A stretch of DNA of 64,000 bases, from assembly GCF_910592395.1 (NCBI RefSeq), contig NC_088319.1, positions 8,990,001 through 9,054,000 of the forward strand, given 5' to 3'. The stretch is from Lineus longissimus (taxonomy: Eukaryota; Nemertea; Pilidiophora; Heteronemertea; Lineidae). Positions 2,441 to 64,000 of the stretch are shown piece by piece. The position numbers and the translations under genes are program-made. Under the pieces are notes generated by a model that worked only from the letters and a program-made list of their open reading frames with translations, made no database searches and was not told the DNA's origin. How positions within the stretch are numbered: position 1 is the first letter of the stretch; every line of letters starts with the position of its first letter.

Positions 2441-2564
2441 ATCAGAGGCCGACTTTTTGAGCTAGTTATAACAGTAGGCCAGCGACATAATTACAAACTG
2501 CATACATTTAATTTCTGTTGACATGTTATATTGTGACAGGTTGGTCTCTTTGGAAATATTTTGT

Positions 2565-2580
2565 GGTTCTGAAAAGAACC
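2565..2580 (-). terminator. Histone-type mRNA 3' stem-loop of gene B, with U7-type element
   Basis: The minus strand reads GGTTCTTTTCAGAACC, 11 bases after the TAG stop of gene B, and 12 bases further CAAAGAGA (2545-2552), a close match to the histone downstream element that pairs with U7 snRNA. The other copies lie at 5204-5219, 7843-7858, 10511-10526, 13179-13194, 15846-15861, 18512-18527 and 21179-21194. Confidence 0.92.
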
Positions 2581-2591
2581 GTTTGGTGTAA

Positions 2592-2897
2592 CTAGCAATC
2601 ACTGTCGTACTCATCGTCTTGAAGTAGAATCTCGTCGCCGAACAGCTCGAATCTCAACTTTGTCATCTTGTTTGCAGTGAGTTCGGCAAATTTGTAATAG
2701 GCGGCCCTGACACCCTCAAGGGTTACAAGCTGGAGTCGCCTGTTGTAGCGCATCGAGCGGTGACCCTCCTCGTTAGCATGGTTGTACCAGAGTGTTATGT
2801 CTTGAAGCTTTCTGTCTATCATCACGATCTGGTCGCATGCCTTATAAAACTTTTCTTCAAGTTGGTGGAGTTGCGCTGACTTGGTTGAGTTTTCCAT
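2592..2897 (-). CDS. Gene B, copy 1: small acidic helical protein with histone-type mRNA end
   Basis: 101 aa, intronless, family not recognised. It has an N-terminal amphipathic helix (about 8-38), the shared block RLQLVTLEGVR (54-64) with YYKFA, and an acidic tail (DDEYDSDC). It is net acidic, whereas its paralogue A is strongly basic. The start MENST was chosen because this copy and copy 2 lack 27 bases upstream, which removes an earlier in-frame ATG found in other copies; the extra 13 residues there are probably leader. This copy differs from the consensus at Trp37, Lys80 and Phe83. It is head-to-head with gene A at equal copy number, so a heterodimer with A is a reasonable guess. Confidence 0.82.
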   Translation of the reverse strand: MENSTKSAQLHQLEEKFYKACDQIVMIDRKLQDITLWYNHANEEGHRSMRYNRRLQLVTLEGVRAAYYKFAELTANKMTKLRFELFGDEILLQDDEYDSDC

Positions 2898-3268
2898 GTT
2901 TTCTTTGGTATCACAGGTTGAATAGTGAACTGGGACGGGTTATCTCGTCCAATTTATACTTGTGCGGTCGCGTGTCACCCGACAACGTAATTGCCATGTC
3001 AACTCGAGTTGACATTACTCATTCAGCCGAACTTGATTGATACATCTCACCCGCCAAGCAATAATATCGCCTTGATTGTAATCAAATAATTGTGTAGGCC
3101 TGGGCTCAATGTATCTGAGGAGTGAGTTAAAATCGCCAATATGGCAATTAATAGGCCTAATTGGCACTTTTTCTCACGAGTGATTGTGAGTAAAGTATAA
3201 AATCCAAATCATTTCACTATATCACCATTAATTCATCGACCATCGGATCAACTTGAAAATTACCAACC

Positions 3269-3553
3269 ATGAAAACCACGATTGACCAGAGATTGCGAGC
3301 GGTCGAGAGAAAGTTTAAAACATCGGTGCGACAAGTCGGCGTCCTCGATAAACAGATTGACAGACTCCAAGCCCGCTACAAGAGAGCTTACAACAGCAAG
3401 ACCAAGGCCGTGTTCAACAGCTTTCGTCTTCAACTTTCAACTCTAGAAGGTGTGCGTCAAGTGTTTTACCTCTATGCATGCGAAAGAGCCGCCGAGAAGA
3501 GTCGACTAGAAAAAGAAATGCAAGAGGAGCTTAGGAGCAAAACAGTAGAATGA
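3269..3553 (+). CDS. Gene A, copy 2
   Basis: The protein is identical to copy 1. The stem-loop is at 3574-3589. The distance from the stem-loop to the purine element is shorter than in copy 1, which has a few extra bases (ACATGT region). Confidence 0.82.
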   Translation: MKTTIDQRLRAVERKFKTSVRQVGVLDKQIDRLQARYKRAYNSKTKAVFNSFRLQLSTLEGVRQVFYLYACERAAEKSRLEKEMQEELRSKTVE

Positions 3554-4500
3554 GTCTTTATAATAATTAAAACGGTTCTTTTCAGAACCAATCAAAATAT
3601 AGTAAAATGAGATAATTCTGTGCAATTAGTTTGCTTCGATGTTAAAAGAAGGGGCGAAAGTCTCCCTTGAAATAGTCCCTGATCGGCAGGACTACAGTCA
3701 CACTGTGGCTTTATTAAACCAGCCGTATCCGTATTTCAATTAAAATATTACACAAAAGTACATGGGCTGTGAATAACAACGTCCTGCATCCACCACTTCC
3801 TTGAGACTAATCCCCGACACGGCCGTTTCGGCGTGCTGTTCAAGAGACCGCTTTATTACGTATCTCTGAAATGCGAGGTCTGAGACAATTGTGCTTGGTG
3901 CGTGGTTGGACTGATCGTCTAGGCTTCTCGCAATTCAAATTTGGTGATCACAGCCATTCAAGTTCACGAGAACTTTCCATGCAATCTGGGGTTTTTATCG
4001 GGACAAAAAGATGCACCGACGCCAACAATACCCATTACTGAAGGGGGCGAAGAAGTTTGATACTGCGGCACCGGCTGTTGGGCCTGAGGGTATGCACCAG
4101 TAATTGCGTTCGCATAATGCAGGCCTAAAAGTGGAGAAGGCTCACCTCTGCTCTTGACTTCGTTTTGTTCCCGCATCGCCGCCACCGTTGCTCGCCAAAG
4201 AAAACGAGGCTGGGCCTGTTGGTGACGTCATCACAGACGGACCAATGACGTCACTAAGTGAATATCATCGCAGTTGACCGCAAGTTGTCTCTTCGGGAAA
4301 TAATCTTAGGCCTACGAACAAACCTTATATAGTCGGTCTTCGAACAAACTTTTAATACTCGCCAAGGCAAATCATTCTTCAGTGTGCGACTAAATTCTCT
4401 ATTGGGCGGTGATGACGGTGGTGGTGGGGAGGGGGGCAGCTTATCAGTTTATACCTTTGAGGTATGAGGTTGGTTGGATTGGAGTCACTTTGGCATTAAC

Positions 4501-4620
4501 TACCCTGCGATGGCAGGGCTGCAAAAATGTCTATAGACTCATTAGAGTGTTCCTCTCTACAGAAATCTTTAGTAAAAGGCGAACAATTTATGCGTGGAAT
4601 CGAAGACAAACCGGACTGAT
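4501..4620 (-). ncRNA. U5 snRNA gene, unit 2
   Basis: Same as unit 1 but with a perfect 3' stem (CCCTGC/GCAGGG, loop CATC). Confidence 0.88.
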
Positions 4621-4960: not shown

Positions 4961-5079
4961 AAGTTACAACACGTGGTATACCGAGGTGGTCACCCATCCA
5001 TGTACTAACCACGCTCGACGTTGCTGGGCTTCGGTGATCGGACGAGAACCGGTGTTTTCAACATGATATGGTCGTAGTC
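4961..5079 (-). rRNA. 5S rRNA gene, unit 2
   Basis: Differs from unit 1 in its second base (GACTACGACC instead of GTCTACGACC) and has one base less at the 3' end, which weakens the outermost pairs of helix I. All later units share this form. Confidence 0.94.
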
Positions 5080-23090: not shown

Positions 23091-23145
23091 ATCTTCAGTA
23101 AAAGGCGAAAGATTTATGCGTTGAATCGATGAGAAACCAGAGTGA
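23091..23145 (-). pseudogene. Diverged U5 snRNA 5' fragment at array edge
   Basis: The minus strand reads CTCTGGTTTCTC, then CGCATAAATCTTTCGCC and TTTTACTGAAGAT, after which the sequence jumps to the promoter-distal spacer. The Sm site and 3' stem are missing. The stem under loop I (ATCTTTC with GAAGAT) is paired as in ordinary U5, unlike the eight array copies, so this fragment resembles standard U5 more closely in this part. Confidence 0.75.
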
Positions 23146-23400
23146 TGTTGTCTTGGCCGCGTCGGCTAGAGCTTGCAGTAATTGGATAATGCAATATACG
23201 AATATCTACTATTTGTCTTCGAAAAAAGGGCCAAAATCAATATGGGAAAACACTTGTGTTTTTCCATTAATTCCAATACAAAACCGAATAATCTAGCATC
23301 CTTATTCTATCACTTACACTTAGTGTGATGATGTAACATAACTAAAAAGATTAACTAGAAAGTGCAGAGTTAGATTTAATAAATCTTTTTAATCTAAATA
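23146..23400. other. Array flank, no gene seen
   Basis: AT-rich DNA after the array break. The only structure noticed is a short inverted repeat near 23241-23266 (ATGGGAAAA against TTTTTCCAT). Confidence 0.5.
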
Positions 23401-23640
23401 ATGAGTGATAAATATGTTTCATACAGCAATATGGCAGCCCACAGGGAGACTAAGAGACATTTAGATAAACAGATGAGTAAGTTAGGGGTACAAGTACAAC
23501 CTCCTCTTCCACCACTAATCCCTAAAGGTGTGGATAAGAAGCTTGCCTTTGAGACTGATGAGCTTGATGGTATAGAGAAAGTGGAAGGAATTGAAGTAGT
23601 AAAGGAGTTTGGTAAGCCTGTGGTTATCACCACAAAATAA
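23401..23640 (+). CDS. Unrecognised 79-aa open frame before polymerase remnant
   Basis: 79 aa with a Lys/Arg-rich start, a proline cluster (PPLPPLIPKG, about 34-43) and an acidic end. I do not recognise it. Its position just upstream of the DNA polymerase remnant suggests it belongs to the same mobile element, but nothing in it proves that. It is open on both strands, which lowers confidence. Confidence 0.3.
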   Translation: MSDKYVSYSNMAAHRETKRHLDKQMSKLGVQVQPPLPPLIPKGVDKKLAFETDELDGIEKVEGIEVVKEFGKPVVITTK

Positions 23641-23869
23641 GCATATCAGTGTTCGCCCAGTTCAATCGACCTTTTGTCGCAGAGCAGAGCTTGAATCGGC
23701 AAGGTGATACAGTTACCCACCCAATTCAATCTCCAATGGAAAGCATAATTTCAAGGAATCAGGCAATCTATGCAGTTACCAACCAGCTTAACTACATTGA
23801 TACACAGACTGAAGATAGGTACTTTCAAGGGTCTGGCTTGTCTCTCAACATAATAGAGTCCTGTGACAT

Positions 23870-25395
23870 GACAATATGTTCTTACTCTACATTGATGCTA
23901 ATAACCTTTACAGGTGGGCTATGATGGAACCTCAACCTTATGGTAGTTTTAATATGACAGATATTGATTCAACAGATGATAACCTCTATCTAAGATGGAT
24001 TATGTCGATACCTAAGCAGAGTGATGTAGGTTATTTCTTTGAGGTAGACTTGGGTTATCCACAAAACATCAAATTCAGGTCAAGGAATTTTCCATTCTGT
24101 CCTGAATCTCTCTTCATTGAAGATGTTGAACTCAGCCCTTACCAGAGGGAGTTACTGGGTGATGAGAAAAGATGAAATGTAGAGAAACTGATACTGACAC
24201 AAAAGGATAAGAACAATTACATAAGCTGCGCTTAGATCTACACCACGAAATATTGGTGGACCAATTGCACGTACACCACCACATTGCCGCGACAAATTGG
24301 TTTGGCAATCCATTGCCGATACAAATTGATGGTCCAAATTCGCCCGGCTTGTTAAAAGCTCGGCTTTGTCGTGGTGTACGCGCTAATGGATCGGCAATTA
24401 GCTAGTTAGATGGTTCGGCGACAGGCGGCGCTTTCGAAATGGCGCTTTCTGCTTATTGTTTGCGCGCCGTCTGTTGCCGGATTTTATAATTAGCTGCAGC
24501 GCTGGTGTACGCGCTTGGTGGATTTTCGATGGTGCGGCATTGGTTCGCGAACCAAGATTGGTGGTCCATTTTCAGGTGGTGTACGTGCGGCTATAGTGCA
24601 TTACAGGATGCTACAGTTTTACCTCGAGCACGGAATGGTACTTGAGGAGGTTCATTCAATGATAAGGTTCAGGCAGTCTAAGTGGTTGGCGTCCTACATT
24701 GACTTCAACACTAAAAGAAGGATGGATTCTAAGACTGATTTCGAGAAAGATTATTTCAAGTTAATGAATACTGCTTTCTATGGCAAGACATGTGAGAACA
24801 TAAGGAACAGGATGGAGATTGAGTTGGTAACAGATGGTAAAAGAGCCAGGAGTGTAATGGTTATCCCAGGTTTTCATCAATATGCATATTTGACGAACAG
24901 AATGCTGCTATTAGCATGAAAAAAACATCAATGAAATTTAACAAATCAATTTACGTAGGTGCTACAGTCTTGGAATTAGCCAAATTATTGATGTATGAAT
25001 TCTACTATGAGGTGCTTCAACCATATTTTGGTGAGAAGAACCTGGAACTACTGTATCTTGATAGAGATTCCTTTGTACTTAAAATGAATACTGTTAATTT
25101 AATTAAGGACCTCAAAGAGTTAAAGGGTCACTTTGACTTCAGTAATTACCCAAAAGATCATCCTCTCTACGACACTAACAAGAAGAAGGTGCCAGGTCAT
25201 TTTAAGGATGAGCTAGGAGGAGAAGAGATGACTGAATTTATTGCACTTAGACGTAAGATGTATGCTTACAGAATCAAGACTATGACTTCGTCAAGAGAAC
25301 ATGACAATGTCTCAGGAGCGAAGCTCGAAGGCTCAACCAAAGAAATTAAAGGGTATTGGAAAGAATGTAGCGACGAGAGATATTGCATTCGATGA
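23870..25395 (+). pseudogene. Broken protein-primed family-B DNA polymerase (Polinton/adintovirus-like)
   Basis: Palm-domain motifs appear in the right order. Motif A is YIDANNLY (about 23888); then LSPYQRELL near 24150; motif B KLMNTAFYGKTCEN near 24760; a conserved MKKTSMKFNK near 24915; motif C reads LYLDRDSF near 25060, where the family has Asp-Thr-Asp; then YDTNKKKVPGHFKDE and LRRKMYAY near 25170 and 25250. Motif spacing and wording fit the DNA polymerases of Polintons/Mavericks and related virus-like elements. At least two frameshifts (near 24170 and 24900), the altered motif C and a 369-base insertion show it is dead. The exonuclease part and the other Polinton genes are not visible. 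Confidence 0.85.
24224..24592. mobile_element. 369-bp non-autonomous insertion in the polymerase remnant
   Basis: It starts AGCTGCG and ends GCGGCT, with imperfect inverted ends containing TACACCAC/GTGGTGTA, and is flanked by ATA direct repeats (24221-24223, 24593-24595). Removing the insert and one ATA would leave the polymerase reading frame continuous across the site, which confirms the boundaries. Several GTGGTGTACGCGC-like inverted copies lie inside. Superfamily not assigned. Confidence 0.7.
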
Positions 25396-31039: not shown

Positions 31040-32713
31040 AGCTCACCTCTTAGCAGAGGTGAGCTTATCCCATACCGTGGCGTCCGTCGTCGTCGTCGTC
31101 GTCGTCGTCCGTCGTCGTCCGTCGTCCGTTAGCAGGGCACGTTTCGTAACTGTTAGAGCTATTGAGTTGAAACTTGGTACACATGTACCCTTATGTAATG
31201 ACACCTTGGAGACCAAGTTTCGGTCCGATTCGTTTCATGGTTTGGCCACCAGGGGGCCAAACGTTAAAAGTGAAAATATGCAATATCTCCCTTGATAGTA
31301 GTCGGGAAATTTTGAAAAAAATATGGTAGGTACTTCTAGCAAAGGTGCATCATATATCCTCCGGGTTTTTGATTTGACCTCCTTTTCAAGGTCACAGAGG
31401 TCAAAGTTTGCTGATTCACTGAACAGTAGCATGTTTCCTATCTATTTTAGCTAGAAGGTTTTAAACCAGTGTGGACATGTATCTGGGGATTCTCTATTCC
31501 ACCCCTAAAATTTCGGCCGTTCGGCCATCAAATATGGCCGCCAGGCAGCCATCTTGAAAAATAAACACAGTACTATTACTCCGAAACTAATGATCGGATT
31601 GCAACCAAATTTGATCTGGATGTATATCTATGTACTCTCTACTAAATCCTTGATTTTTTATCAAATGTGAAAGCCAATATGGGTGCCAGGCGGGCATCTT
31701 GAAAAATTCTTAGTTTTGCCACCCGGGGGCCAAATTTAATGTCCAAAGTTAAAATGTTTGATTGCTCGTTTAATAGTGGTCTGATTTTCATAACATTTTT
31801 ATGGTAGGTACTCCTAGCAAACATACATTTCATAAATGTGGGTTTTTGATTTGACCTACTTCTCAAGGTCACAGAGGTCAAATAATCTACTAAAAATTGT
31901 TTTCCACAATGCAAGATCAGTCCATGGAAATTTCAAAGATCTGAAACTTGACCCAAACATCAAAGCCGCCTCTATTATTGCATTTGCAGAATCCAGATTA
32001 AAAGCATCTGATCCAGACATAAGCTACTCATTACCAAACCACCAACTGCTGCGTAATGACCAAACAACTACAAAAGACCTAAGACCTCCACATGGACTGA
32101 TGATGTACATTAGTACAAATTACGAAATAATAGAAGTAAAAAATCATAACCATGGAAATTCCTTTGAAGCCCTTTCAGTTTGCATTCATCCCCCAAATCA
32201 TCACTCAGTCATCCATATCATTGCAATATATGCAGCGCCTTCATCTACGTTCCAAAATCTTGTGTATGGTCTACAAGACTGCCTTTCATCTTATGAACCG
32301 AATGAACAATACATTGTTATGGGTGATTTTAACATGAAATCAATAGGTGAAGGTGAAAACTATAATGCAAAGTTAGAAACCTTTATGTTTCAAGCATATA
32401 ACTTCAGACAAAACGTGTCCAAAAACACCACCAGCTATCAGTCCAAATTGGCCCTTGTATTCACCAATCCTACTCCATCTGCCACTATTGACTTGGTCGA
32501 TATAATAGACAATTACTGGTCAGATCACAAAATTGTCTACTCTGCTTTGTCATACCTGTAGTCACCTCAATTAAATTCAACTTACGCATTATTTTATCTC
32601 TCATGTAATTTCATTGTAAAACATTACTTCATTTCTTTCTTACATTTAAAACCATGCTAATGCTTCATCCATCTTCCCTTCACAAGAGGTGAGCACAATG
32701 GCCCTGGCCATTT
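31040..32713 (+). mobile_element. Helitron2/Helentron-like element with endonuclease remnant
   Basis: The left end is a perfect 10-bp hairpin (AGCTCACCTC-TTAGCA-GAGGTGAGCT, 31040-31065). The right end is GAGGTGAGCACAATGG followed by CCCTGGCCATTT, where AATGGCC/GGCCATT form a terminal hairpin. The CTCACCTC/GAGGTGAG pair is terminal on the left but subterminal on the right, as in the asymmetric terminal inverted repeats described for Helitron2/Helentron elements. A CGTC-rich simple repeat lies near 31081-31130. The body (31140-31880) is the same repeat that recurs many times further right. Rep and helicase domains are absent. Confidence 0.7.
31836..32561 (+). pseudogene. Helitron-type AP-like endonuclease domain, truncated
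   Basis: An open frame of 241 codons. The first 16 or so residues come from the repeat body. From about 31888 it encodes an exonuclease-endonuclease-phosphatase domain: IVFHNARSVHG, SIIAFAESRL (catalytic Glu), LLRND, HGLMMYIS, YIVMGDFNMKS and WSDHKIVY near the end. This wording matches the endonuclease that sits at the C-terminus of Helentron proteins; non-LTR endonucleases share the fold. The helicase part is deleted, so the frame is probably a relic even though it is open. Confidence 0.7.
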
Positions 32714-33039: not shown

Positions 33040-36000
33040 TACCATATTGAAAATTGAAGAAGTCGCGCATAATAGGTTTAAAATATCAGTCGTAAGCCTG
33101 GCTTCTCCTGGGTTATCTTCCCACATGAAATCACGGATTACCGAAGCCAGACGAGCTGTTTCAATGTCCACGTGAGGAGTCTTAATGTTGTTTGCTGTTA
33201 TGTGCTGTACCGAGGGTTGGGGAATTTGAAGACAGTCTGCAATGTTACTGATGTTGTTTGATGTTGACGACATCCTTCCACCCAGGGAGAGCCGGCTTGC
33301 AAAGAAAATTAATACATTGTTATGATTTAAAGACCGATTTAAGAAATTTAGGAAACGTCTTTTTAATATTACATCTATGGAGGGACGCATCATGATAGTG
33401 GCTTAGGCTATGTGTCATAGGATGTAAACCTAACACTCTACGAACTGCCTTCCGCCAGGCAGTATAAAAAAATTTCAATCGTCCTGTCATTCAAGTCCCA
33501 AATGACACAACCATACAAAGACAAGCAGTAAGTGTTAAACAATATCTTGCAATTTAGTTTCGAATTTGCAAAAATGAAATTTTGACAGCAAGACATTGAC
33601 TCAGCGATTCAATTTGGACACAGTCCTGGTTACCTCGAAATTCCTTGCATCAGGGTCAATAAGGTGGCCTAAATGGACGGCCGACCCCTTCGCAACCATG
33701 CGTGCACCTTTTAAAGCTCTTGTAGGCGGACCATCAGCAAAGTTAATACAATTAGGCCTGAAGTACAAGAGATGACACTTAGTGGCATTAAAAAGGACTA
33801 GATATTCTTCGGAATAAATGGAAGCGACGTTTAGCTGGGTTCCAAGTGAGAATTTGATTGGACACAATATTATGATATCATCAGCATACCCAAAGGCACC
33901 GGCAACAATTGTCCCAACAAAGCACTCCTGACCAGAGTCTTTGAGGTGCTCTAGTTGAAAACAAAGCGGGAGACAGTAAACCCCCTCGCTTCACTCCGTT
34001 TGCCACTGTGAAGAAATCCGACTTATAGTCGAGGCACCTTATTCGCATTTTCTGTTTGATGTCTAGCAAGGCTGTAACCCTGGCTAATGTTGGACAAACC
34101 TTCCTTTTTATCAGAAGACAGAAGAGACGTGTATCTTCCAATCAATCGAATGCTTGAGAAGCGTCAAGCAGCATCGCATACACCCGAGACCCACCATTGA
34201 GATAATATTTGATTGATTTATTAACAACATAATGTGCAACTGGTGGTGGAAACGCCCTTCTTATGATCAAACTGCATATCGAAGGACTGAAGTCGTTCCT
34301 TAGCTTTAGAAAGAATGACGGTTTCCAAAAGCTTGGAAATAATGCTGTTGAGTTCAATGGTCATGTAATTTGAGGAATCGTTTAGAGATAACTTGGCATT
34401 TTTAGGAATAGGAATACTTGTACTAATTGTAATAATGTCGGGTGGAACTTGTCCGTGCCGTAGCATAGCAGTGAACAGAACGGATAGCAAAGTATGGAGC
34501 CTGTGGCGCCATGCTTTGTACGACTGGTTGATAGCCCGAGCAAACCGTCATTCTAGTTAAAATTTAGTAACCTACACAGGAAGCAATCGCGTCCACTGTT
34601 GTAAAATGTTGCTGATTACATGTCATTGAACTATTAGCACATGAGCATTTGGATGAAACAAGGCAGTCTATGTCATGAAGAGTAGTAATCATTAACTGTC
34701 CATCAAAGGAAACTGAGTCATACAAAGTTGTATATTTCTGGCAAAAAGGTCACCAATAGCAGCTTTACTGGTAATTCCGTCGACCATGTTTGGAAGTTTC
34801 TGAGATGATTCATTAATTTTTCGGACCTCTGACCAGAAATCGGCTTTGTTTTTGTTTAGAAGAGAATCGGCTATTTTGTTAGCTTTGCGCTTTTCTGAAT
34901 TATTTTTTGCTTGCTTGACTGCTAAATGATATTGCGCCTGCGTCCGACGCCTGATTTCGGCAACGAGCCCTTTCCGCGGAGTTCGGTTGGTTTTCCATGG
35001 GTTGTGCCAGAAAATAGCTTTACGTTTGTACTCTGCCATATCCTCATCTACCCAGGAATACAACAGTCTTTGGTGTGGGCTGAAGATTTCGGTAGATGGC
35101 GCTGACCTGCCTGAATGCAAGCAAGTACGATATTGTCATAGCTCATTGATGGAATGATCATGGTTCGTGTGCAGCGCAGGTTTGTGCACGCCCCTGAATT
35201 GCAGTAAGCAGATTGTGGAGACTGTTCTTGCATTGTAACAAGTCATTTTAGTTAGCTCTATACCAATTACTTTTGGTTTCCTCAGGTTGCCGTAATTCTG
35301 CCGGTCTCGCACCATCAATCTCGTCTTGCCGATCTGTGTCTGTGTGTGACCGACACTGGATAGTGATCAGATAGATCATTTCCATCATTTCCATCATACA
35401 GCGACACATAGCGATCAGTATGAGACAGAACGTTCTCACTGACAATAAATTGATCCAAAACGGACCTCTGACCATCAATTTGCTTTCAAATGTGAATGGC
35501 ACATCAGCAACAGGGAGCGATAGGCTGTTAACTAGATTTTCTGTCTCAAGGAAGGCTCTAAGGCATCCTGTGTTTTGGAAATTTATCCGAGTGTCGGTGT
35601 TAAGGTCACTACCACCCAGGATGATTTGATCGACTCCGAACAAAAGTGCAGTACTCGCTACCTCATCTTAATTTGCCCTATGTTACGGAAGGTTTGCCGG
35701 GATAAAGTCGCATGGCGTGTAAACATTAACCACAAGTATACTAAAAACAGTAGTGAACTGAAATCTAACGGCACATATGCGTGTGCTTTCAGTCACAGGT
35801 GTGGCTTCTCATAATAAGGACTTTCTCCAAAGGATTGAACAACCACCATGCGGTCGACCTATTAACAAGGTCGAGTCATCAATGCTAGAGACACCATGCG
35901 AGTTATTGCCAGGAATGCTCTCCTGGAGGCGGCTAAGATTGTCATTTAGGAGTCACGTTTCTTGAATGAGACAGATATCATGTACTTTATGTAGGTCAGC

Positions 36001-37399: not shown

Positions 37400-38700
37400 C
37401 GAGAATGTCTAGGTGAACTCGTTCAGAATGTAGAGAGGTCACAAGATATTTCCAAGATATACAACGAAAAGGCCGCAAGTCGGCCATCTTGAATGCAAAA
37501 TCAGTTATTATCGAACTTGACCTTGATATTCATCCCATACACGTGCACACCAAATATGAACTGTCTAAGTGAACTCGTTCAGAATATAGAGAGGTCACAA
37601 GGCATTATCAAGTTTTACAACAAAATGGCCGCCAGTCGGCCATCTTCAATGCGAACTCAGCCATTATTGAACTTAACCTTGATATTCACCCCATACACCT
37701 GCACACCAAATATGAACTGTCTAAGTGAACTCGTTCAGAATATAGAGAGGTCACAAGACATTATCAAGTTTTACATAAAATGGCCGCCAGTCGGCAAACT
37801 TGAATGCGAAATCAGCCATTATTAAACTTGACCTTGATATTCACCCCATACACCTGCCCACCAAATATGAACTGTCTAAGTGAACTCGTTCAGAATATAG
37901 AGAGGTCACAAGGCATTATCAAGTTTTACATAAAATGGCCGCCAGTCGGCAAACTTGAATGCGAAATCAGCCATTATCGAAGTTTGCCTTATTATTCACC
38001 CCATACATGAGCACACCAAATATGAAATGTCTAGGTGAACTCGTTCAGAATGTAGAGAGGTCACAAGGCAATTCTAAGTTTTACAACAAAAAGGCCGCTA
38101 GTCGGCCACCTTGAGTGCGAAATCAGCCATTATCAAACTTGGCCTTGATATTCACCAAATACACATGCACACCAAATATGAAATGTCTAGATGAACTCGT
38201 TCAGAATGTAAAGAGGTCACAAGGCATTTCCAAGTTTTGCAACAAAATGGCCACTAGTCGGCCATCTTGAATGCAAAATCAGCCATTATCGAACTTGACC
38301 TTGATATTTACACCATACACGTGTACACTAAATATGAAATGTCTAGGTGAACTCGTTCAGAATGTAGAGAGGTCACAAGGCATTTCCAAGTTTTACAACA
38401 AAATGGCCGACAGTCGGCCATCTTGAGTGCGAAATCAGCCTTTATGAAACTTGGCCTTGATATTCATCTGATACACGTGCACACCAAATATGAAATGTCA
38501 AGGCGAACTCGTTCAGAATGTAGAGGTCACAAGGCATTTGCAAGTTTTACAACAAAATGGCGGACAGTCGGCCATCTTGAGTGCGAAATCAGCCCTTATC
38601 GAACTTGGCCATGATATTCACCCGATACACGTGCACACCAAATATGAAATGTCTAGGCGAACTCGTTCAGAATGTAGAGAGGTCACAAGAGTGTGACATA
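37400..38700. repeat. 156-bp satellite array, about eight copies
   Basis: The anchor GTGAACTCGTTCAGAAT recurs at about 37413, 37569, 37725, 37880, 38035, 38191, 38347, 38503 and 38656, spacing 153-156. Each unit carries AAATGGCCGCCAGTCGGCCA, with a TGGCCG/CGGCCA hairpin. Because 156 is a multiple of 3, spurious long frames appear. Confidence 0.9.
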
Positions 38701-42237: not shown

Positions 42238-42750
42238 GCTCCATTTTTGGTCCAATGATGAAGTCATCAGCAAAAGTTCTAACCCTTCCATCTCCTACAC
42301 CCACCATTTGTGGTCCAATGATGAAGACATTAACACACATTCTAACCCATCTATCTCCTACACCCACCATTTGTGGTCCAATGAAGAAGACATTAACAAA
42401 CATTCTAACCCATCTATCTCCTACACCCACCATTTGTGGTCCAATGAAGAAGACATCAACACACATTCTAACCCATCTATCTCCTACACCCACCATTTGT
42501 GGTCCAATGATGAAGACATTAACACACATTCTAACCCATCTATCTCCTACACCCACCATTTGTGGTCCAATGATGAAGACATTAACACACATTCTAACCC
42601 ATCTATCTCCTACACCCACCATTTGTGGTCCAATGATGAAGACATCAACACACATCCTAACCCCTCTATCTCCTACACCCACCATTCCTGGTCCAATGAT
42701 GAAGACATTAACAAAATTCTAACCCATCCATCTCCTACACCCACCACTGG
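42238..42750. repeat. 63-bp minisatellite, about eight copies
   Basis: CCACCATTTGTGGTCCAATG recurs every 63 bases (42301, 42364, 42427, 42490, 42553 and onward). As 63 is a multiple of 3, frames stay open on both strands through the array. No gene features around it. Confidence 0.9.
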
Positions 42751-45249: not shown

Positions 45250-48200
45250 CTGTAAAGGAAAAGAATATAAAGACAACACTGAAAATTCAAATATTGTTCA
45301 TATCATAGAACTGGAGCAGAAAGGCATAATGAAATGGCCAGGGCCATTGTGCTCACCTCATGTGGAGGAAAGATGGATAAAGAGCATGGTGTTGTGTCAT
45401 GTAGTGTTAGGTTTGATGTAGGTCCAAGCAATTACAATTTCCCCAAAATGGCCAATTTACAGTACATTCGACCTCTGTGACCTTGAAAAGTAGGTCAAAT
45501 CAAAGAAGACCCGGGTGACACATTGAATGGTTGTTAGAATTAGATGTACCTATGATATAAAATTGGTGCCAATCGGGCAAGTAATACTAGGAATAATGGC
45601 ATTTTGAAGAATTTAGGATTTGGCCCCCTCCCTGGAGGCCAAACGGCAAATCAGATCGCACCAAACTTCGGTACCTGAGACCACCTGACCAAGGGGTACA
45701 TGTGTACTTAATTTGTGATCAATAGTCATTGCAGTTAAGAAACGTGCCATAGTTACGGCCTGACGGCCAATTTACGCCATTTGACCTCTGTGACCTTGAC
45801 AAGAAGGTCGTATTAAAAACCTGTGTGACATATACTGTATGGTGGTTAGATGTACCCATGATATCAAATTGGTGGCAATCGGGCAAGAAGTTAAGGAATA
45901 ATCACATTTTTAAGGTTTTTGGATTTTGCCCCCTGGTGGTCAAGTGGTGAATCATATTGGACCAAACTTCGGTCCCTGAGATTACCTGACTAAGGGGTAA
46001 ATGTGCACCAAATTTGGGATCAATAGTCATTGCAGTTTAGAAACGTGCCATCGTTACATCCTAACGGCCAATTTACACTATTTGACCTCTGTGACCTTGA
46101 AAAGGAGGGCAAATCAAAAACCCGGAGGATATATGATGCACCTTTGCTAGAAGTAACTACCATATTTTTTTCAAAATTTCCCGACTACTATTAGGGGAGA
46201 TATTGCATATTTTCACTTTTAACGTTTGGCCCCCTGGTGGCCAAACCATGAAACGAATCGGACCGAAACTTGGTCTCCAAGGTGTCATTACATAAGGGTA
46301 CATGTGTACCAAGTTTCAACTCAATAGCTCTAACAGTTACGAAACGTGCCCTGCTAACGGACGACGGACGACGACGACGACGACGACGGACGACGGACGC
46401 CACGGTATGGGATAAGCTCACCTCTGCTAAGAGGTGAGCTAAAAAGGAGGATAAGCATTATTCATTTTATCCTTTTCTTCATTAAGAAACATACCATATT
46501 TACATCATTTGACCTCTGTGACTTTGAAATTTGGTCAAATCAAAAACATTTAAGATATATGATGTATCCTTGCTAGGAGTACCTACCATAAAAATATCAT
46601 CGAAAACAAGTCGCTAATAAGCGAGATATTGCACTTTTACCTTTTTTAGTTTTGGCCCCCTGGTAGCCAAGTCAATAATCGGATCAGACCAAAATTAGGT
46701 GTCAGCGGTTATATGACGTAGGGAGTTATATGTATGAAATTGCAAGTTCAAAGCTGAAGCGGTTAAGAAACATGCCATAGTTACACTCAAACGGCTAATT
46801 TACGCCATTTGACCTCTGTGACCTTGAAAATTAGGTCAAATCAAAAACCCGTATGATATTAGATGTATCCTTGCTAGGAGAACCTACAATACACATTTTA
46901 TCGAAAACAAGTCATTCATAAGAGAGATCTCACACTTTTTAGGTTTCCACTTCTTGCCCCCTAGGGGCCAAGTAAAGAATCGGATCTGACTGAAATTCAT
47001 TGTTAGAGGTCACCTGACCTGGAGGGTCCAGTGTACAAAGTTTCAAGTTCATAGCTCCAGTGGTTAAGAATTGTTCCACTGTTTTTGAAACAGGATACAG
47101 ACGACGATGACGACAGACGACGGTCACAGCGGTGTTATATAGAACCCTCTACAGTGAGCCAAAAAGACCGTGTCGGAACTGGGGTTTGAACCGCTTATCA
47201 ATGAATAACATGGCAATCACTCCATCGAGATGTCTACATATAAGATTTGAACAGTCTGTGACAAATAGTAGCGAAACATGCAAGTGAAATTAAACCTTTG
47301 TCCTTGGAAACTAGGTCAAGGTTGAAATGTTTTAGCCCTATGTTAACCTTGCTCATATCAATCATTAACATTTGAAGACCACAGAGTGAAGGTTTCTTGA
47401 TATATGACTCATGTAGCCTCTCTCATGAAATCACATGCGCCAAGACACATAAGATCAATCAGAATAATATAAATTTTTAAGTAAATCAAGAACAGCACTC
47501 AGACAATTAGTTTAAGCTTGCATCAAATTTTTACTATTCCTGTGAGCAAGCAAATGTTGAAGTCTATCACTATCAGCAGTCGCCAAAGAGAACACTCCTA
47601 ACATGTGGAAAAACATTGGGCCACTAATGACATGTAGGTCTTGTTTATTGTTACAGAAGCATTAATAACGTTTTAAGGGAACCTACATTTTAGAGTCTTG
47701 GCCAAATGAAAAAGCCATGGGCCATTGTGCTCACCGTAAAGATATTTGGTGGTTAGGAACTGATGCTGGTTTAACGAACATGCTACATGTATAATATATA
47801 GGTCAAATCGAAATTGGAATGACATGTGATTTATCCTGGCTTTGAGTACCTACAATAAAAGTATTATCTAAAAACAAGTCACTAATAAGCAAGATATTGC
47901 ACTTTCTACCTTTTCAGTTTTGGCCCTCTGGTGGCAAAGTTGAGAATCAGGTCAAACCGAATTTCAGCGTCAGAAGTTATCTGACATAGGGGATTATGTG
48001 TACCAAATTTCAAATTCATAGATATAGTGGTTTAGCAATGTGCCATTGTTACACTCAAATGGCCAATTTGCGCCATTTGACCTATGTGACCTTGAAAATG
48101 AGGTAAAATAAAAAACACGTATGATATGTGATGTATCCTTGCTAGGAGAACTTTCCATAAATTTTTTTGCGAAAACGAGTTGCTTATAAGCGAGATATCG

Positions 48201-62683: not shown

Positions 62684-64000
62684 AACGGCCAGGGGCCATT
62701 GTGCTCACCGTATACATCTTTTAGTAGGCAGGATCATGCTTAGTTTAGAGGTGAATCAGGTGAACACAATCAGGCATGAAGACTTTTTTTAGATGTGTAT
62801 TGATGTCAAGTAATAAGACAGGGCAGTATATATAAGTTTATGATCCAACCAATAATTGTCTATGACATCAACAAGATCAATATCGTGTGATTGCTAAGAG
62901 TCCCTGCAATAAAAAATTCATCGAAAAAAAGTCATTAATAAGCAAGATATTGCACGTCCTACATTTTCAGTTTTGACCCCCTGGTGGCCAAATCAAGAAT
63001 CAGATGAGGCCAAAATTCGATGTCAGAGATTATCTGATGTAGGGGGTTACATGTACCAACTTTCAAGTCCATAGCTTCAGCAGTTAAGAAACGTGCCATA
63101 GTTACACTCTAATGGCCAATTTACGCCATTTGACCTCTGTGACCTAGAAAAGGAGGTCAAATCCAAAAATCGTAGGACATGTGGTGTATCCTTGCTAGAA
63201 GTCCCTGCCATAAAAATTTTATCGAAAACAATTCACTCAAATAAGCAAGATATTGCACTTCTTCCTTTTTCCATTATGGCCCCCTGGTGGCCGAATAAAG
63301 AATCAGATCAGGCCAAAATTCGGCATCAAAGGTTATCTGATGTAGGGGGTTATATGCACCAAGTTTCAAGTTCATAGCTTTACTGGTTAAGAAACGTGCC
63401 ATAGTTTACACTCCAACGGCCAATTTACGCCATATGACCTCTGCGACCTTGAAAAGTAGGTCAAATTGAAAACCCGTAAGACATGTGATGTATTCTTCCT
63501 AAGAGTACCTACCATAAAAATTTTATCGAAAACAAGTCACTTAATATAAGCGAGATATCACACTTTTTAGATATCCACTTTTGGCCCCCTGGTGGCAAAG
63601 TTGAGAATCAGATCAAACTGAAATTCAGCACCAGAGGCTATGTGATATAGGGGGTTATATGTACCAAGTTTCAAGTTCATAGCTTTAGTGGTTAAGAAAC
63701 GTGCCATAGTTTACACTCTAACGGCCAATTTAAGCCATATGACCTCTGTGAACTTGAAAAGTAGGTCAAATTAAAAACCCGTATAATATAAGATGAATAT
63801 TTGCTATGAGTACCTACAACACAAGTTTCATCGAAAACAAGTCACTAATAAGCGAGATATCACACTTTTTAGATATCAACATTTGGCCCCCTGGTGGCCA
63901 AGTTGAGAATCAGATTGGACCGAAATTCAGTGTCAGAGGTCACCTGACCTAGGGGGTGCTGTGTACAAAGTTTTAAGTTCATAGCCCTAGCGGTTAAGAA
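62684..64000 (-). mobile_element. Helitron2-like repeat, continues past the window
   Basis: Begins AACGGCCAGGGGCCATTG, then at least three 300-330-base modules in head-to-tail order (GCCCCCTGGTGGCCAA at about 62967, 63280 and 63886). No hairpin end before 64000. Confidence 0.7.

Follow-up and report, generated by a model that had tools for sequence, protein, structure and literature searches.

The question raised by this locus is whether the 3' end of replication-dependent histone mRNAs is used by genes that do not encode histones. Excerpts of two papers describe the stem-loop forming this end as a feature of replication-dependent histone mRNAs alone (PMC6303110; PMC2642717). In the window, which is the whole 64-kb stretch of DNA analysed here, such stem-loops follow the stop codons of two small gene families designated A and B. 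While the RNA element itself has been described before, finding it at A and B appears to be new, and among the matches listed from the open-licence literature there were no non-histone stem-loop genes and no family of this kind, which is weakly indicative.

Organisation of the A/B array

A and B are intact single open reading frames clustered in a tandem array, as in replication-dependent histone genes. The array occupies positions 1-23,090 with a unit of 2639-2668 bp (~2.65 kb); it starts before the window, and its last unit is partial. Nine A genes are present on the plus strand, beginning at 621, 3269, 5908, 8574, 11242, 13910, 16577, 19243, and 21902, and eight complete B genes on the minus strand, at 2592, 5231, 7870, 10538, 13206, 15873, 18539, and 21206; a ninth B is truncated by the window start. 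The copies described below, gene A at 3269..3553 (+) and gene B at 2592..2897 (-), specify 94 aa with the stop TGA and 101 aa with the stop TAG, respectively. The first A copy (621-905, +) is likewise a 94-aa open reading frame with the hairpin 20 nt past TGA. Read along the plus strand, a complete unit consists of A (+), U5 snRNA (-), 5S rRNA (-), and B (-), followed by the next A.

B and A of neighbouring units are arranged head to head, their start codons being 371-398 bp apart and, for the copies named, 371 bp (2898..3268). In this shared region, TATAAAT is located on the B side (2958-2952, -) and TATAAAA on the A side (3196-3202, +). The same region contains ATGTCAACTCGAGTTGACAT, a 20-bp perfect palindrome at 2996-3015. 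The N-terminal extension of P0003, a relative of the proteins encoded here, opens with an apparent translation of this palindrome, which may therefore be kept in a relative.

Seven other units showed 98.2-99.7% identity to one reference unit. Among the array copies, four synonymous and four nonsynonymous variants were found in A, and no synonymous and five nonsynonymous ones in B, three of which are borne by the B copy at 2592-2897; these variants are too few to show selection on A or B.

The RNA genes of the unit were identified by Rfam searches. Eight U5 snRNA-like matches to RF00020 (54.4-55.5 bits; gathering 40), all on the minus strand in array units, were obtained at 1861-1978, 4502-4619 (55.5 bits), and six more sites. 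Eight 5S rRNA-like matches to RF00001 (85.6-91.0 bits; gathering 38), also on the minus strand, are found at 2322-2440, 4961-5079 (85.6 bits), and six more sites. Compared by eye with the U5 consensus, the U5 copies keep loop 1 and an Sm-like site and have one or two base pairs changed in the stem under loop 1, so that they possibly represent a variant U5. Where the array stops on the right (23091-23176), U5 runs on as a different copy with 83.7% identity, and the array end looks as if it were the product of recombination between two U5 genes. The 5S rRNA-like genes are followed by T runs. They look diverged from other animal 5S genes, with a hint of resemblance to mollusc 5S.

Repeats of mixed content are known from other animals. 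In excerpts of the respective sources, a Hydractinia repeat is described as containing five histone genes along with 5S, U1, U2, and a tRNA (PMC5011920), and linkage of 5S and snRNA genes is reported in molluscs, fish, crustaceans, and a coral (PMC8167085). The A/B array resembles the repeat of Hydractinia, as given in that excerpt, in that Pol II stem-loop genes share a repeat with 5S and a spliceosomal snRNA (PMC5011920), but U5 takes the place of U1 and U2, and histone genes were not recognised in its units.

Outside the array, open reading frame pieces at 23616-25395 (+) resemble, on visual inspection, a Polinton-type DNA polymerase, with no Pfam match, and a retrotransposon endonuclease piece (Exo_endo_phos_2, E 1.7e-9) is located at 31836-32561 (+). 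Pfam likewise did not match further open reading frame pieces at 33601-35667 (-). Other tandem repeats are present at 37404-38690 (156 bp period), 42241-42746 (63 bp), 45450-46244 (301 bp), and 62891-64000 (305 bp).

Histone-type 3' ends of A and B

The stem-loop GGTTCTTTTCAGAACC is located 20 nt past the stop codon in all nine A genes (3574..3589, +, in the copy named) and 11 nt past it in the eight complete B genes (2565..2580, -), exactly as the earlier note had described. A perfect 6-bp stem is formed in 17/17 cases. When both strands of the 64 kb were scanned for perfect 6-bp stems starting with GG and enclosing a 4-nt loop starting with TT, no site beyond these 17 was detected. Since the units are nearly identical, the hairpins represent two independent instances, A and B, and not 17.

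Comparison with RF00032 (Histone3), the Rfam family for histone 3'-UTRs with a gathering score of 34 bits, gave 36.9 bits for 8/8 B sites (E 1.4e-7). The 9/9 A sites reached 31.5-33.0 bits (33 bits at 3574..3589; E 4.3e-6 to 1.5e-5), which is 1-2.5 bits below gathering, so that they are reported only under an E-value threshold. A histone-type 3' end is therefore supported by a family match above gathering in B, and in A by sites just under it. Between the 3' ends of A and B, similarity detected by blastn covers only ~31 bp around the hairpin.

A candidate U7-binding (downstream) element, CAAAGAGA, was found in B at 2545..2552 (-). It starts 12 nt past the stem-loop, in agreement with the claim that B carries such a sequence at U7-element distance. 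In A, the purine run AATGAGA (3606..3612, +, 16 nt past the stem-loop in this copy) lies 14-22 nt past the hairpin depending on the copy; with one mismatch to AAAGAGA, it is a weak candidate and less convincing than the element of B. Both sequences are judged against the U7-type consensus.

A and B share with replication-dependent histone genes a stem-loop soon past the stop, a candidate purine element downstream, short single open reading frames, and the combination of a tandem array with a divergent pair. They differ in encoding two-helix hairpin proteins without a histone match. Judged from the sequence, the 3' ends of A and B would work as those of histone genes do, but the two genes lack the defining feature of encoding a histone.

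Proteins encoded by A and B

A and B are homologous; a single comparison showed 29% identical positions across 83 residues (E 3e-10). Histone families of Pfam did not match either protein at E values up to 10; B was without any Pfam match, and A had two weak matches far under the cut-off. No histone was among the PDB sequence matches of A and B. AlphaFold2 models, built from alignments of 42 rows for B and 40 rows for A, predicted two-helix hairpins in both cases. The B model has helices 2-44 and 47-86 and a low-confidence tail (mean pLDDT 89.0), and the A model helices 2-43 and 46-93 (mean pLDDT 94.2). A stretch conserved in the family, RY..RL, is placed at the turn of the hairpin. B has an acidic disordered tail; A is basic.

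These results support the proposal that neither protein has a histone fold or resembles H1. It is hardly credible that A and B represent histones, or proteins of the H1 type, that have diverged strongly: they are small, paired, and arrayed, A is basic, and both have histone 3' ends, but Pfam and PDB sequence comparisons yielded no histone, and the models show two helices and not the three of the histone fold.

Fold comparisons of the models matched many unrelated hairpins; the two-helix arrangement is common, too common to give a hint of function. The ING dimerisation domain (4afl, 8cok), a two-helix hairpin of about 100 residues, appeared in both fold searches, but with a Foldseek E value of 0.28 it is not significant and, as one of many unrelated hairpins, a lead only.

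Relatives of A and B

Sequence searches yielded 18 B-like and four A-like entries, and a search with a profile built from 18 sequences detected 43 relatives at E <= 1. One of them is MAR_007846 (P0035), a hypothetical protein of Mya arenaria (profile E 1.9e-19). The core of the family, ...RLxLxTLEGVRxxFYxYA..., is conserved, and A and B match the profile. In a tree of 42 rows, for which three fragments were left out, an A clade of nine rows (support 100/99) and a B clade of 21 rows (99/98) are separate, their stems being long branches that meet. The 12 rows of an outer group, C, have support of 92/78 (not starred). MAR_007846 and other entries of this outer group belong to the same protein family as A and B, but are located outside both clades. 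The A group is basic throughout (9/9, pI 9.8-10.5). In the B group, pI values of 4.7-6.8 are calculated for 19/21 proteins, the exceptions being P0014 (7.7) and P0020 (9.6), both without the acidic tail. The C group is mixed (4.5-10.3).

In viral contigs, searches with B, the A+B profile, and two C-group profiles gave no confirmed locus and an exact 20-mer no match; no locus was obtained in prokaryote genome contigs with the B and C profiles. Six family-like peptides were not found in print in open-licence papers. To the extent covered by these searches, the family is undescribed, consistent with the earlier view of it as uncharacterised; no contrary description was found among the open-licence matches listed.

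For four of ten A-like entries, the longest contig is equal in bp to that of a B-like entry from the same data source (1265, 1390, 1807, and 1490 bp, with two B-like entries at 1807). By chance, a mean of 0.12 such coincidences is expected, and four were never reached in 5000 jittered rounds. A and B are therefore probably neighbours elsewhere too, which supports their linkage in other organisms indirectly.

Traces of the hairpin in relatives

Predicted proteins running past their likely stop were read for traces of the hairpin. Among 45 family proteins, made up of the 43 relatives plus A and B of the window, two (P0008 and P0033) have a read-through tail in which the hairpin appears in translated form. 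P0008 shares 72-73% identity with B and ends with ..DSDWKKDTKRFFSEPQNV, and its tail KRFFSEPQN can be encoded base for base (27/27) by the B 3' end of the window. P0033 belongs to the outer group, is 37% identical to B, and is located on a contig of 782 kb. It contains ..KRPFSEPTQISRKK.., and the tail agrees with the stem-loop core and a U7-type element, CAAGAAAGA, at 11 nt in 29/29 specified bases when spacing is left free and pairing is not required by the template. Shuffling P0033 300 times gave values of 25 or less, and the next best family protein reached 23. The best P0033 hairpin has 5/6 pairs. With a template that is one base off, the fit was 27/35, equalled by 10 of 400,000 random peptides. 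The hairpin core alone was found twice in the frame matched by both proteins versus none in 20,000 shuffles (45 proteins pooled, 4760 residues); in the other two frames there were no real matches, and 0.00035 and 0.0029 chance matches per pool. All these tail templates were written after the tails of P0008 and P0033 had been noticed. Peptides of 4-5 residues are too loose as a probe for the hairpin, with 4.5 chance matches per shuffled set.

In P0008 and in P0033, a tryptophan occupies the position of the likely stop, and we infer that it reflects a TGA translated with a different code. The remaining 43 proteins, A and B of the window among them, are without the pattern, most because they end at their stop; some, such as P0020 and P0034, have tails lacking the hairpin translation. 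As far as protein tails can tell, P0008 and P0033 fit the expectation that orthologues should have the stem-loop, and the other 43/45 are silent. Indirectly, these tails support the presence of the hairpin in other organisms.

Interpretation and alternative explanations

A and B most probably represent a non-histone animal family that uses the 3'-end processing of replication-dependent histone mRNAs, probably as an A/B pair. SLBP, the U7 snRNP, and CPSF73 would process A and B pre-mRNAs like histone pre-mRNAs, and the products would be short mRNAs, poly(A)-minus and coupled to S phase. Going by the signals at their 3' ends, A and B mRNAs are likely to be poly(A)-minus and S-phase controlled. 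ATTAAA sequences, located 54 nt past the hairpin in B and at distances of 124 and 150 nt from it in A, would leave scope for polyadenylation too. Histone genes of C. elegans with the hairpin bear polyadenylation signals as well, and the same is stated for bdelloid histone genes in an excerpt of PMC2642717, so that poly(A)-minus A and B mRNAs are not assured.

It is possible, if doubtful, that the hairpin is real but the main use of A and B lies in oocytes and early embryos, or that their mRNAs are partly polyadenylated, and not tied to S phase. mRNAs with such hairpins are stored in bulk in oocytes and early embryos. The ATTAAA downstream of both hairpins, the histone genes with both signals in C. 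elegans and bdelloids, and the linkage of A and B to 5S rRNA genes are in favour of this use, but the U7-type element of B at the right distance and the fit of such an element in P0033 suggest ordinary histone-type cleavage.

Local capture appears rather unlikely. According to this explanation, the array is derived from a histone/5S/snRNA repeat, the histone 3' ends were gained by recombination, and the family is not linked to replication. Arrays of such a kind exist, as indicated by the Hydractinia repeat joining histones with 5S, U1, and U2 (PMC5011920, in excerpt), and the restriction of A-B 3'-end similarity to ~31 bp around the hairpin would be in line with such an event, but the hairpin traces extend to P0008 and even to P0033 of the outer group. 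Still more improbable are hairpins arising by chance or having another role, for example in transcription termination beside the 5S gene: the array copies are dependent and leave two instances in the window, but an identical 16-mer past two different genes, the RF00032 E value of 1.4e-7 for B, the lack of any further site in 64 kb, and the traces in two other entries all speak against it.

Within the favoured reading, a non-histone family with histone-type 3' ends, the head-to-head genes with TATA boxes on both sides, the opposite charge of the products, and their separate clades suggest matched production of partners. By analogy to H2A and H2B, A and B proteins might pair with each other, a prediction for which the chances seem about even. 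The conserved RY..RL stretch at the turn and the acidic tail of B would suit such partners. Freshly replicated DNA or chromatin would be their site of action; of the two relations raised in the earlier note, to chromatin or to the ribosome, a role in chromatin is put forward tentatively.

Carried further, and as a speculation, animals could possess, beside the histone mRNAs, another class of poly(A)-minus mRNAs coupled to replication, to which those of A and B would belong. An old helical-hairpin family would be amplified here, and a heterodimer of basic A and acidic-tailed B would be loaded on new DNA or chromatin in histone-like amounts. If a conserved non-histone family has the histone 3' end, the histone-only rule would be broken. 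Processing by SLBP and U7 could then serve non-histone genes, and the arrangement would point to a protein wanted by cells in proportion to DNA replication.
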